This document shows positions 5,792-52,968 of a stretch of DNA of 64,000 nt, piece after piece. A program made the position numbers and the translations under genes. Every line of letters begins with the position of its first letter. Position 1 is the first letter of the stretch. Source of the stretch: Halomicrobium urmianum (GTDB taxonomy: Archaea > Halobacteriota > Halobacteria > Halobacteriales > Haloarculaceae); the NCBI RefSeq assembly GCF_020217425.1, contig NZ_CP084090.1, forward strand, positions 868,001-932,000, in the 5' to 3' direction. The notes beneath the pieces are model-generated. The model saw only the letters and a list, made by a program, of their open reading frames with translations. It did not search any database and was not told the origin of the DNA.

Positions 5792-5876
5792 TGACGTTTC
5801 ATTCCGGACGGCGTCATTTAAGGGCATCGTTAGCGACCGCTGTCGAGAGGCGGTGGCACGCGCCGTGGCGCGGCGA

Positions 5877-7917: not shown

Positions 7918-9060
7918 TCAGGGACTCGATATCTCGAAGGGCACCGGCGTGAAACACGCCAGCCCCAGCAGGAGCGTCAGCAGGGCCAGCGCCCGCCGCT
8001 TCGAGCCGAGGCCGTCGTCCCGGATCGGCGTCGCCGGGCCGGCGTAGGCCAGCCCGGTCGCCAGCAGCCCCCACATGATCCAGATGCCGATCGAGTCGGT
8101 CACGTCCCGGACGAAGTACACGTAGCCCGCGAGGCCGAAGAGGGCGGCCGGCACGGCGGCGGCGACGGTCTCCTGACGGTCGCCGACGACGGCCCTGACG
8201 ATGTGGCCCCCGTCCAGCTGTCCGACGGGGAGGAGGTTCAGGAACGTGATGAACATCCCGACCCAGCCGCCGAACACGACGGGGTGGTAGGCCCCGGACT
8301 GGAGTTTCCCGAGCGTGCCGGTCGCGGCGGCGATGGCCTGCAGCAGCAGCGGGTGATTGAACCGGACGACCACGGCATCGGGGTCGGGTATTCCCTGCTG
8401 GACCGCGAGCGGATCCAGCTGGAGCCCGATCGCCGACACGACTACGGTCGCGACGAGGCCGGCCAGCGGCCCCGAAGCGCCGATGTCGAACAGCGCCCGT
8501 CGGTCCGGGATGCGACCTTTCATCCGGATGACGGCGCCCATCGTCCCGATGAGCGTCGGGAAGGGGATGAAGTACGGGAGGGTGGCGTCGACCCCGTGGT
8601 ACCGGCTGGCGACGTAGTGGCCGAGCTCGTGGACGGCCAGCACCCCCAGCACCGCGGCTGCGAAGGGCCAGGCACGGAGGATCGCGATCGGGTTCGACGG
8701 GTCGATCTGGTACCACCGGACGGCGCCGACGAAGAGCGTCGAGCCGCTCGTCAGCAGCGCGAGGACGACGTTCGTCCACGGGATCCCGTCGACGCCGATC
8801 GACAGCGGACGGGCGACCAGCACCCACCCGTGGGTCGGGACCGTCGTCTCCGAGTCCGGGACGTACTCCCGCTGGAGGCTGATCTCGTAGCCCCGGTCCC
8901 TGAAGAGGTCCCAGAGACGTCGCTCGACGTCATCTGGGGGAACGAGCGGGTCGCCGACGTACAGCAGACGGTCGCCGTCGCGGCGGACCTGATACACCTG
9001 AAACGCCGAGTCCAACCGGTCGGGCGCTGGAGCGTCTGCCGGCGTCGCGGACCCGTCCAT
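7918..9060 (-). CDS. Site-2 protease family M50 membrane metalloprotease
   Basis: This 380-residue intramembrane zinc protease has HELGH at residues 144-148, supplying two zinc-binding histidines and the catalytic Glu, and a second motif PVGQLDGGHIVRA whose Asp (about 283) is the third ligand. Six or more hydrophobic segments surround them. The first about 85 residues form a soluble domain. ATG at 9060 is preferred to a GTG one codon earlier. Archaeal targets of this family are mostly unknown. A second, PDZ-containing M50 protease lies at 12587. It is convergent with thiL. Confidence 0.9.
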   Translation of the reverse strand: MDGSATPADAPAPDRLDSAFQVYQVRRDGDRLLYVGDPLVPPDDVERRLWDLFRDRGYEISLQREYVPDSETTVPTHGWVLVARPLSIGVDGIPWTNVVLALLTSGSTLFVGAVRWYQIDPSNPIAILRAWPFAAAVLGVLAVHELGHYVASRYHGVDATLPYFIPFPTLIGTMGAVIRMKGRIPDRRALFDIGASGPLAGLVATVVVSAIGLQLDPLAVQQGIPDPDAVVVRFNHPLLLQAIAAATGTLGKLQSGAYHPVVFGGWVGMFITFLNLLPVGQLDGGHIVRAVVGDRQETVAAAVPAALFGLAGYVYFVRDVTDSIGIWIMWGLLATGLAYAGPATPIRDDGLGSKRRALALLTLLLGLACFTPVPFEISSP

Positions 9061-18096: not shown

Positions 18097-19350
18097 ATGA
18101 GTGAGTCCGAGCGAGAGCAGTCTGACAAACAAAAATACGAGTTCAAGAAGGTCATCGAGGACCTGAAGGACTACGAGGGATCAGGAACGCAGCTCGTCTC
18201 TATCTACGTTCCCGAGGACAAACTGATCAGCGACGTCGTCGCGCACGTCACGCAGGAGCACTCTGAGGCTTCTAACATCAAGTCGAAGCAGACGCGGACG
18301 AACGTGCAGGACGCCCTGACGAGTATCAAGGACCGCCTGCGGTACTACGATACTCGTCCGCCGGATAACGGGCTCGTACTGTTCTCCGGTGCCGTCGACG
18401 CCGGCGGCGGACAGACCGACATGATCACGGAAGTGCTGGAGAGCCCGCCCCAGCCCATCGAGTCGTTCCGGTATCACTGCGACTCGCACTTCCTGACCGA
18501 GCCACTCGAGGAGATGCTGGCCGACAAGGGCCTGTTCGGCCTCATCGTGCTGGACCGCCGCGAGGCCAACGTCGGCTGGCTCCGCGGCAAGCGCGTCGAG
18601 CCCGTCAAGTCCGCCTCCTCGCTGGTGCCCGGCAAGCAGCGCAAAGGTGGCCAGTCCGCCCAGCGGTTCGCCCGCCTTCGGCTGGAGGCCATCGACAACT
18701 TCTACCAGGAGGTCGCGGGGATGGCCAACGACCTGTTCGTCGCCGAGCGCCACGAACTGGACGGCATCCTCGTGGGCGGTCCCTCGCCGACGAAAGACGA
18801 GTTCCTCGACGGCGACTACCTCCACCACGAGCTCCAGGACAAGGTCATCGGCAAGTTCGACGTCGCCTACACGGACGAATCGGGGCTGTACGACCTCGTC
18901 GACGCCGCCAGCGACGTCCTCGCCGAGCACGAGATGCTGGAGGACAAGCGGGCCATGGAGGAGTTCTTCGAGCAGCTCCACGACGGCGAGAAGGCCACGT
19001 ACGGGTTCGAGCCCACACGCGAGAACCTGATGATGGGCGCCGTCGACCGCCTGCTCATCTCGGAGGACCTCCGGCAGGACGTCGTCACCTACACCTGCGA
19101 GAACGGCCACGAGGAGCGCGAACTGCTCGACCGACGGGAGGAGACGCCAGAACACACCTGCGACCGCTGCGGCGACACCGTCTCCGCCGAGGCGGGCGAG
19201 CGCGAGGACGCCATCGACCACCTCATGGAGATTGCCGACCAGCGGGGCACCGAGACGCTGTTCATCTCCACTGACTTCGAGAAGGGCGAACAGCTGCTCT
19301 CCGCCTTCGGCGGCGTCGCCGGCCTCCTTCGGTACTCTACCGGCGTCTAA
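18097..19350 (+). CDS. prf1: Peptide chain release factor aRF1
   Basis: This 417-residue factor recognises all three stop codons and triggers peptide release. The NIKS stop-reading motif is at residues 60-63, the YxCxxxF element appears as YHCDSHF (near 127), and the catalytic GGQ is at 184-186. The C-terminal domain has a Cys-pair zinc-finger-like insertion (CENGHE then CDRCG). All functional elements look standard, so the factor itself does not suggest that UGA is spared as a stop codon. A CTTAAAC box lies close upstream. Confidence 0.97.
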   Translation: MSESEREQSDKQKYEFKKVIEDLKDYEGSGTQLVSIYVPEDKLISDVVAHVTQEHSEASNIKSKQTRTNVQDALTSIKDRLRYYDTRPPDNGLVLFSGAVDAGGGQTDMITEVLESPPQPIESFRYHCDSHFLTEPLEEMLADKGLFGLIVLDRREANVGWLRGKRVEPVKSASSLVPGKQRKGGQSAQRFARLRLEAIDNFYQEVAGMANDLFVAERHELDGILVGGPSPTKDEFLDGDYLHHELQDKVIGKFDVAYTDESGLYDLVDAASDVLAEHEMLEDKRAMEEFFEQLHDGEKATYGFEPTRENLMMGAVDRLLISEDLRQDVVTYTCENGHEERELLDRREETPEHTCDRCGDTVSAEAGEREDAIDHLMEIADQRGTETLFISTDFEKGEQLLSAFGGVAGLLRYSTGV

Positions 19351-49233: not shown

Positions 49234-49482
49234 ATGTCCAACAGCGTCGAAGACGAGACGACCGTCAACGACAGCTACTCGGTGACAGTCCCCGCGAGCG
49301 TGCGAAGCGAGGCTGACCTGGAGGCCGGCGACAGGCTCCGGTGGCGCGTCGACGAGGGCGGTGACCTCCACGTCGAGGTCGTGAAGCGGCGCCGCGGTGC
49401 GTTCTCGGAGCTCGATCCGGTCGAACTGGACGAGGAGACGAACGCGGCCGAGGACCACGACACCGTCGCCGGCGAGTACTGA
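49234..49482 (+). CDS. AbrB/SpoVT-type antitoxin
   Basis: This 82-residue protein has the swapped-hairpin AbrB DNA-binding fold (SYSVTVPASVRSEADLEAGD, then LRWRVDEGGDLHVEVV) and an acidic C-terminal tail that would bind the toxin. Its TGA shares a base with the ATG of the next gene. It should neutralise the PIN-domain toxin and repress the operon. Confidence 0.85.
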   Translation: MSNSVEDETTVNDSYSVTVPASVRSEADLEAGDRLRWRVDEGGDLHVEVVKRRRGAFSELDPVELDEETNAAEDHDTVAGEY

Positions 49483-49910
49483 TGGCGACGGCACTGATCG
49501 ACTCGAACGTCCTGATCGGCGCGCGGATCGCTACGGATCAGCACCACGAGACCGGCCACGCGATAGCGACCGGTATCGACGGGGGATCGCTCCCGACCGG
49601 CCGGATACCCGACGACGTCCTGTCGGAGGTTCTCAACTACCTCCACACGAGAGCCGGTAACGAGGTCGCCGTCGAAACGTTGGACGCGATCCAGGCGAGC
49701 GTGGACTTCGAGGTCGACGGGACGACCAAGACCGACTTCGACGCCGGACGATCGCTGTTCCGCCAGTACGACGGGCTATCGTTCACCGACGCCGTCATCG
49801 CGGCCTACATGCGCCGGACCGGAATCGACTACCTCTACAGCTTCGACGACGATTTCGACGCCGTGGACGGCATCACCCGGCTCGATACGGTGACGAATCC
49901 CTTCGTCTGA
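49482..49910 (+). CDS. PIN-domain (VapC-type) ribonuclease toxin
   Basis: This 142-residue protein has the PIN-domain acidic residues in order: D in LIDSNVLIGA, an E in LSEVLNYLHT, and D residues in LSFTDAVIAAY and FDDDFDAV. The active site looks intact. It probably cuts tRNA or rRNA when free. Pair with the antitoxin just upstream, overlapping by one base. Confidence 0.87.
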   Translation: MATALIDSNVLIGARIATDQHHETGHAIATGIDGGSLPTGRIPDDVLSEVLNYLHTRAGNEVAVETLDAIQASVDFEVDGTTKTDFDAGRSLFRQYDGLSFTDAVIAAYMRRTGIDYLYSFDDDFDAVDGITRLDTVTNPFV

Positions 49911-49997: not shown

Positions 49998-51086
49998 ATG
50001 GGTTCGTTCGATTCGATCGACGCCGAAACGATGCTCGCGGGCCGGAGCGACTGAATCGACGCCGACCTCGCGGCGCGGCTCGCCGAACACCCGCCGGAGG
50101 GCGTCGAGACGGAGTTCCCACACTGGGTCGGCGGCGTCGAGTCGCCCGAGGCGTTCGACCGGCCGAGCGAGCAGCATCCTGTGTTCTACGGGTGTTACGA
50201 CTGGCACTCCGCCGTGCACAGTCACTGGTGTCTGGTCAGGCTGTTCCGGCTATTTGACGACCACCCCGACGAGGCACGGATCCGAGACAGTATCGGCGAA
50301 CGGCTGACGGCCGCCAACGTCGAGCGGGAACGCGAGCGCTTCGAGGAGAACTCGACCTTCGAGAAGCCGTACGGCTGGGCCTGGCTCCTGCGGCTGGCGG
50401 CGGAGCTACGCCTCTGGGACGACCCCGTGGCCGACGAGTGGCGGACGACGCTCCGACCGCTCGAGTCCCGGATCGTCGACCTCGTCGAGTCGGAGTTCCT
50501 CACCGACGAGCGGCCCTTCCGGGTCGGCACCCACGAGAACACCGCGTTCGCGCTCGCGGGCGTCCTCGACTACGCGCGGGTGGTGGGAGACGGCGACCTC
50601 ACGGCCGCCGTCGGCGAGCGGGCGCGGGCGTTCTACCTGGACGACAGCGACTACCCCGTCGAGTACGAGCCGCTGGGCTGGGACTTCCTGTCGTCGGCGC
50701 TGTCGGAGGCCGACCTGCTGCGCCGGGTCCTCGACCGCGGAGAGTTCGCGGACTGACTCGACGGCTTCCTGCCCGACGTCCGCACCGCGCCGCATGACGC
50801 CGTCCTCGAGCCGGTGGCCGTCGAGCCCGATTCCGACGAGGGGGTCGCCCACCACCTGGTCGGACTGAACCTCTCGCGGGCGTGATGCCTGGCCGGCGTC
50901 GCGGACGCGCTGGGCGACCACCGGTACGCCGAAGCGCTGGAGCGCGGCGCCGAGCGCCACGCCCGCCGCGTCGTCCAACAGGCCTTCACCGACGACTACG
51001 CGGGCGCGCACTGGCTGTCCTCGTTCGCCGTCTACCTGCTGACCAGAAACGAGGGCGGCGTCGCGCCCGCAGAGAGTCGCGCGTAG
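49998..51086 (+). pseudogene. DUF2891 family protein with three in-frame TGA codons at Trp positions
   Basis: From ATG 49998 to TAG 51084-51086 there are 362 sense or TGA codons in one frame. TGA occurs at 50052-50054 (codon 19), 50754-50756 (253) and 50883-50885 (296). Each sits where DUF2891 homologs have Trp (GRSD-W-IDADLA, EFAD-W-LDGFLP, NLSRA-W-CLAGVA). Nine other Trp codons remain TGG, and there is no other stop and no frameshift. The conserved FYGCYDWHSAVHSHW and EKPYGWAWLLRLAAEL segments are intact. It is most simply a recent pseudogene, otherwise a read-through gene. Confidence 0.8.
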
Positions 51087-51107: not shown

Positions 51108-52968
51108 TCAGATCGCCTCGAACAGCGTCACGAGGTCGTCGTAGTCGATCTCGCCGTTGCCGTTGTAATCGTAGTACTGGGCGTTGCGCCCCATTCCGTC
51201 GCTGGCTAGCTCGTTGAAGTACCGGACGACGTCCTGGTAGTCGGCCTCGCCGTTGCCGTTGAGGTCCTCGTACAGGCCGTCGCCGTCGGGGTCCGTCGCG
51301 CCCTCCGGCCAGTCGGGCCCGGGCGAGACGACCGTCAGGGTCGCGCTCTGCGTCGAGACGGGGACCTCGTCGCCGGCGTTGCCGTCCAGGTTCGAGACGT
51401 CGACGCCGACGTCCGTCTCGCCGTCGGACTGTCCCGCCAGCGTCACCGTCGCCAGTTCGACCTCGGTCGCGCCCTCGGAGACGCTCTCGCCGAGGTCGGC
51501 ACCGCTGATGACGGCCGTCGAACCGTCGTCGCTGGGCGCGGGCTCGCTGCCGATGGAACTCATGTCACCGCCCACGGCCGCGCTCTCGATGGTCGCCACC
51601 GACGTGTCCGACACGCCGACCGTCAGGTCGAACCCGGAGACGCCCCCGGGGGCCTCCGACAACAGCACCGACGCGGTCCTCTCGTGGCCCGGGACGAGAT
51701 TCGCCGGCGGCATCACGACCGAGACGGTCGCCCCGGGTGCCGTCGTCCGTCGTCGCCGCGACGGTGGCCGGGCCGGACTCGTTGCCCGCGCCGTCGACCG
51801 CTACCACCGACACCTCGTACTCCGTGCCCGAATCGAGCCCGTCGACCGTCGCCTCGGTCGTGCCGGCGGCGACGGTCGTCTCGCTGCCGCCGGCGGAGGC
51901 GACGTACTCGGCCAGCCCCGAGCCACCGGCGTCGCTGGCGGCGTCCCACGAGACCGTCACCGACGACTCCGAGGTGGTCACCGACAGGTTCGACGGCGGA
52001 GAGGGCGCCGTCGCGTCCCCGGTGCTCCCGCCGCCGAGCTTCTCGTAGACGACGTCGAAGTAGTCGCTCTCGGTGTAGGACGAAGCACCGCAGTCGTCGC
52101 CCCAGTACGGGTCGGCCATGTTCATGGGGTCGTCGGAGCCGTCGCCGTTCCACGCCCAGCCGATCACCGGCCAGCCCAGTTCCTTAGCGTGGTCGACGAT
52201 GGCCGACCAGTCGGCCTGCCCGTCCATGTTGCTGCCGAACTCCCCGACGATGCAGGGGTAGTCGGTCTCGTCCATGACGTCGAGGTGCTCGGGCTGGAGC
52301 CACTCGTTGGCCGCCTGGTTCCAGCCGCCGGAGTAGACGTGCGCCGAGAGGATCAGGTCGTCGTCGATCACGCCGGCGGCCTCGGCGAGCCGGTGGGTCT
52401 CCTGCCCCCAGCCCGGCGCGTCGCAGACGATCGGTCCGTCGTAGCTCGTGCCCTCACGGACCGCGCTGATCGCCTCGTCGTACGCCGAGGCGTACTCGTC
52501 GGCCGTGACGTCGTGGTTGCCCCACTCGTTCATCATGTTGACGACGATGTCGGTGTCCCGCGAGAGGGTCTCGTAGTGCTCGACCCAGAACTCCGCGGCG
52601 TTCTGCAGCGCCGACGCATCGGCCGAGCCGTTGTCCGGGTAGTGGTGGTACGTCGCGACGACGTTCTTGCCGTTCGCGCCGGCCTCGTCGATCCAGTGCT
52701 TGGCGTCCTTGACGGTCGTCGCCACCTCGCCGAAGGAGAACGGCTCGATCTCGATCCGGACCGTGTCGATGGCCGGGTACTGGTTCATCAGCTCCCAGCC
52801 AAGTTCCTGGTCGCCGCTGCAGAAGTACGACGGCTGCAGGTTCACGCCGTCGCCGAACGATGCGCCCGCCGCCGCCGCGGTCGCGCTGCTCGCGGCCACG
52901 CCGGCGCCGACGGTCGCCCCCACTGCGGTCGTCCGTAACAGGTCGCGTCGCGTGTACGTGTGTTCCAT
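51108..52968 (-). pseudogene. Tat-exported GH5 glycoside hydrolase with FnIII, cohesin-like and dockerin domains, one frameshift
   Basis: The first frame (52968-51740) has a Tat signal (TRRDLLRTT), then a GH5 catalytic domain (about 36-320) with catalytic Glu in NMMNEWG (E148) and VGEFGSN (E243). An FnIII domain (about 325-405) ends VAATTDDG. The continuation GATVSVVMPPANLVPG is in a second frame: a cohesin-like domain and a dockerin with two Ca-binding repeats (DPDGDGLYEDLNGNGEADYQ and YDYNGNGEIDYDDL). One extra base near 51738, in ACCCGGGG, explains the break. As written, the protein would lose the cohesin and dockerin. Confidence 0.75.

Follow-up and report, generated by a model that had tools for sequence, protein, structure and literature searches.

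The window analysed here is a stretch of 64,000 bp from the 4.25 Mb genome of Halomicrobium urmianum (G000:C1:868001-932000). At positions 49998-51086 of the forward strand it carries a single 363-codon reading frame of the DUF2891 family (PF11199), which terminates with TAG and is interrupted only by three TGA codons, namely codon 19 (50052-50054), codon 253 (50754-50756) and codon 296 (50883-50885). The translation read through these codons matched positions 2-324 of the 325-position Pfam DUF2891 profile (E=2.5e-115) with a score of 385 bits, where the gathering threshold is 25, and thus belongs to the family. As the profile is covered almost completely, the frame therefore lacks an internal indel of note. 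Both the re-reading of the frame and the profile match agree with an earlier note on this DNA, which had described 363 codons with TGA at these three places and no other stop or indel.

The gene located on the 3' side, convergent with the DUF2891 frame, encodes a GH5 cellulase with fn3 and dockerin domains (51108-52968, reverse strand) and has a frameshift near 51726. The GH5 and fn3 part (51568-52968) and the dockerin domain (51111-51716) lie in different frames, and hence a second broken gene adjoins DUF2891. A gene pair for a MazE/AbrB-like antitoxin and a PIN-domain toxin (49234-49910, forward strand) is located immediately 5' of the DUF2891 frame.

The positions of the TGA codons were examined in an alignment with 29 intact homologs, 27 of them haloarchaeal. 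Trp occupies codon 296 in all 29 and codon 253 in 28 of 28 (one of the 29 has a gap), while codon 19 is a variable position with Trp in 18 of 29. The claim that each TGA stands at a Trp site of the family was thus borne out, as was the count of nine further Trp codons in the frame, all of them TGG. Given that the conserved domain spans codons 27-346, the stops at codons 19, 253 and 296 truncate conserved domain sequence, as in a nonsense pseudogene. In-frame flags of one TGA in some DUF2891 relatives turned out to be terminal stops, none of them internal, and among the 57 genomes of the order that bear DUF2891 it is only in that of Halomicrobium urmianum that stops interrupt a frame which is otherwise of full length.

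The family is patchily distributed. DUF2891 was found in 57 of the 392 genomes of the order and is absent from the other 335, and within the genus it is present in 2 of 7. The gene is single in Halomicrobium urmianum, with no second copy in the genome. Two other genomes (G048 and G028) have remnants with stops, and short fragments are found in further genomes. The patchy occurrence, together with the decayed copies in other genomes, shows that the gene is dispensable. A plasmid collection contained DUF2891 only at less than 60% identity, and the matches listed were all bacterial.

The decoding apparatus looks standard. TGA terminates 1,047 of 1,645 predicted genes (64%), and the archaeal peptide chain release factor 1 (aRF1), encoded in the window at 18097-19350 on the forward strand, has intact NIKS, YxCxxxF (here YHCDSHF) and GGQ motifs, so that the earlier statement that TGA serves as a stop and that aRF1 looks normal holds. 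Among 50 matches to the tRNA family RF00005, which cover intronless tRNAs, none had the anticodon UCA. The search for a tRNA-Trp(UCA) that had been proposed as a check therefore came out negative for intronless genes, and the tRNA-Trp that was found is a gene with a long intron and the anticodon CCA (L286 1478-1655, about C1:3290831-3291008, forward strand). In the structure that we assign to this tRNA, the anticodon stem has 5 bp (GCTGA/TCAGC) and position 24 is G. Reading of UGA has been linked to tRNA-Trp(CCA) in which the anticodon stem has four pairs or position 24 is changed to A (PMC13092985), and the tRNA-Trp here has neither the four-pair stem nor A24.

Some further features were observed at tRNA genes. 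Two 15-mers that lie 10,196 bases apart just 3' of tRNA-Trp are also repeated every 14,077 bases in contig C4, which suggests that a 14.1-kb element is integrated at tRNA-Trp and was also assembled as tandem copies, from either a circular form or a concatemer. In addition, two near-identical tRNA-Glu(TTC)-like genes of 69 nt, at L159 101-169 (forward strand, C3:44902-44970) and L161 101-169 (reverse strand, C1:334266-334334), share an identical 100-base 5' flank, the normal tRNA-Glu being 75 nt long. These genes are possibly carried by a mobile element.

Comparable lesions were sought with a coding HMM in which in-frame stops and frameshifts can be passed at a cost, run on 2.06 Mb, or 48% of the genome. 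An early coding-potential scan had mostly called neighbouring genes that share a frame, and the HMM, with and without frameshifts, was used in its place. Planted stops were recovered equally well whether Trp had been changed to TGA (107 of 150) or to TAG (106 of 150). Two otherwise clean frames have a TGA at a conserved Trp, a GH10 xylanase-like gene (L178 4861-6876, reverse strand, TGA at 5809, aligned to 7d88) and a GH16-dockerin gene (L244 8531-9634, reverse strand, TGA at 8891, aligned to 3azx). TAG was found at Trp in a GNAT gene (L210, aligned to 1nsl), the 5' half of which is apparently in another frame, and in a gene in L183, which also has a TGA at a variable position. A CBM3-fn3-dockerin gene (L259) contains a frameshift and a TAA. 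At a looser setting, the HMM identified a kinase remnant with TGA (L269) and a gene at L258 (18501-19418, reverse strand), which we take to be DUF1254-like from our own reading of its sequence. The latter has TAG at a codon that is CAG in an intact homolog of 87% identity, within a stretch of 306 codons that is otherwise open; a relative was sought in the PDB and none was found. The nearest intact homologs of this gene are three tandem copies in a genome of another genus (G065).

Four other HMM calls were rejected as false positives: two adjacent genes (L206), antisense low-complexity sequence (L242), an ordinary gene end ahead of NucS (L273) and a start artefact (L207). The frameshift calls, 60 in 2.06 Mb, show no excess over the 12 in 0.22 Mb of a relative. 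Genes for polysaccharide degradation that are broken by nonsense or frameshift are the GH10, GH16-dockerin, CBM3-dockerin and GH5 genes.

Outside DUF2891, the stops at Trp in the 2.06 Mb are therefore two TGA and two TAG, and one stop is also found at Gln; these stops reflect the mutation spectrum and not a reading specific to UGA. A count of TGG-to-TGA changes, proposed in the earlier note as a further check on the whole genome, gave in these 48% of it only five Trp-aligned TGA codons, in three genes, against about 6,018 in-frame TGG. A code in which UGA specifies Trp was accordingly not found in this part of the genome, where TGA is rare at Trp and is the main terminator, aRF1 is intact and the tRNA looks standard.

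Random nonsense had been expected to strike Gln, Arg and Glu codons as well as Trp, and this expectation fails for the DUF2891 gene. Conversion of a Glu codon to a stop requires a transversion. When the three TGA sites are counted as TGG, the gene offers 29 routes to a stop by G/C-to-A/T transition, comprising 12 from TGG to TGA, 12 from TGG to TAG, two from CAG, one from CAA and two from CGA. Trp codons are frequent in the gene and Gln codons few, so that its 12 Trp codons account for 24 of these 29 routes, and the probability that three of three nonsense changes fall on Trp is therefore 0.57; that all three are TGG-to-TGA has a probability of 0.07. In Halobacterium salinarum, G/C-to-A/T transitions dominate spontaneous mutation (PMC9997560), and a survey of more than 250,000 genomes showed that the stops in pseudogenes mostly arise by transitions of codons such as UGG and in this way mimic reassignment of a stop to Trp (PMC8629427). 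The predominance of Trp among the stops is thus accounted for by a haloarchaeal mutation bias towards G/C-to-A/T transitions acting on a Trp-rich, Gln-poor gene, and stops that all lie at Trp are not improbable in DUF2891.

The remainder of the frame shows little sign of relaxation. The GC3 of 0.912 is close to the genome median of 0.907, and only 2 of 70 invariant columns are changed, a level of change also seen among intact homologs. For the stretches that follow the first, second and third TGA, identity to homologs ranks 22nd, 25th and 21st of 25, counted from the lowest, and so equals or exceeds that of intact copies. The nearest homologs share 59-66% protein identity, a distance at which synonymous sites are saturated. 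At conserved columns, 2 of 238 nonsynonymous transition routes have been used, as compared with 3 of the 29 nonsense routes (Fisher p=0.01); if the first change is taken as nonsense, that two of the next two to four changes are nonsense as well has p=0.012 to 0.06, these p-values being modest and the gene having been picked for its odd look. By our own estimate from Hbt. salinarum rates (PMC9997560), a gene as long as this one should acquire frameshifts about three times as often as nonsense changes, and none was observed. The undamaged remainder is hence in mild tension with neutral decay, and is compatible with a very recent inactivation. The missing drop in identity and GC3 limits the age of the lesions and does not exclude decay, as it is expected in very young pseudogenes. 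That the clean remainder points to recent decay, or else to selection kept up by read-through, had been proposed from the sequence, and the high identity after each TGA agrees with very recent decay.

Taken together, the frame is in all likelihood, with a probability of about 0.9, a dispensable DUF2891 gene that became a pseudogene recently. The most serious competitor is an error of sequencing or assembly that conceals true TGG codons, which we consider improbable. Contig C4 does resemble the tandem-copy contigs typical of long-read assembly. However, each of the same three-codon contexts occurs with an intact TGG at other places (GAC-TGG-ATC 22 times, GAC-TGG-CTC 31 times and GCG-TGG-TGC twice), and a systematic context error can therefore be dismissed; nor are frameshift calls any commoner than in the relative. 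Strand-biased hypermutation of the gene, raised earlier as a possible origin of the changes, would explain why G became A three times on the coding strand, but A at the third codon position is not raised (5.5% as compared with 5.3% in the genome) and a single G-to-A change explains none of the 26 deviations at conserved columns, which leaves this origin with scarcely any likelihood.

Translation of UGA as Trp could be confined to this gene or general. In the former case, tRNA-Trp(CCA) would misread the three UGAs to give some full-length DUF2891 protein, and the frame would stay under selection, consistent with the occurrence of all three stops as UGA at Trp, the lack of relaxation in the remaining protein and the like pattern in the otherwise clean GH10 and GH16 frames. 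However, the CAG-to-TAG change at L258 breaks another frame that is otherwise clean, other genes have TAG and not only TGA at Trp, and a comparison of the sequences around the UGAs revealed nothing in common. Moreover, TGA is the main terminator, tRNA-Trp has the 5-bp stem and G24, and losses at three serial stops would multiply. Such read-through is thus very unlikely, though it keeps a small share of the probability because of the otherwise clean frame and its mild tension with neutral decay; it is equally doubtful that the GH10 and GH16 mRNAs are also translated through UGA as Trp along with the DUF2891 mRNA. Reassignment of UGA to Trp throughout the genome, or a strong ambiguity of the codon, could draw on the five Trp-aligned TGAs in three genes but is in practice refuted by the codon counts, and the termination of 64% of genes by TGA, the absence of a UCA anticodon among the intronless tRNAs and the intact aRF1 make it still more remote. 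Of the alternatives that had been put forward from the sequence, recent G-to-A changes therefore stand, whereas read-through of UGA gives way to the TAG codons at Trp, the CAG-to-TAG change and the standard decoding.

For recent pseudogenisation, the course of events that we infer is that selection on the DUF2891 gene was lost a short time ago, and that three G-to-A transitions then followed, each of which would have converted a TGG codon for Trp to TGA. The absence of other damage in the frame argues that inactivation was very recent. Translation would end at the TGA codons to leave a peptide of 18 residues and at most internal fragments. Other genes of the genome show comparable lesions, with both TGA and TAG in place of Trp codons, a TAG in place of a Gln codon, a TAA, and indels.

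The DUF2891 frame resembles the nonsense pseudogenes of prokaryotic genomes, such as the disrupted genes described in haloarchaea (PMC4500146, PMC3119063), in that stops made by point mutation interrupt a dispensable gene with a frame that aligns fully to homologs, and several further genes of the Halomicrobium urmianum genome are broken likewise. It differs from them in having three nonsense changes of the same type with no indel or other visible damage, which is unusual, yet within chance for a Trp-rich gene. TGA at conserved Trp positions is shared with the codes in which UGA specifies Trp, such as code 4 of Mycoplasma and Spiroplasma, and with read-through by a tRNA-Trp(CCA) that has a 4-bp stem (PMC13092985). 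In contrast to those cases, most genes here end in TGA and Trp is normally encoded by TGG, the stem of tRNA-Trp has 5 bp and TAG is also found at Trp in broken genes. Recoding of stop codons in archaea, which inserts Sec at UGA and Pyl at UAG (PMC8211752), likewise involves an in-frame stop within an archaeal gene, but the residues here are Trp. No recoding element was seen in the local context of the DUF2891 UGAs.

Earlier cases of UGA being read through as Trp by tRNA-Trp in haloarchaea are not known to us, and such read-through, if true, would to our knowledge be the first instance in this group of tRNA-Trp decoding UGA as a sense codon. Stops that all lie at Trp are weak evidence for recoding, because where G/C-to-A/T mutation acts on a GC-rich gene with many Trp codons, most of the nonsense falls on Trp. 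The DUF2891 gene of Halomicrobium urmianum is real, was correctly described and is recently inactivated; it is ordinary in kind, and illustrates in detail how a gene that decayed recently can look like a case of stop-codon reassignment.
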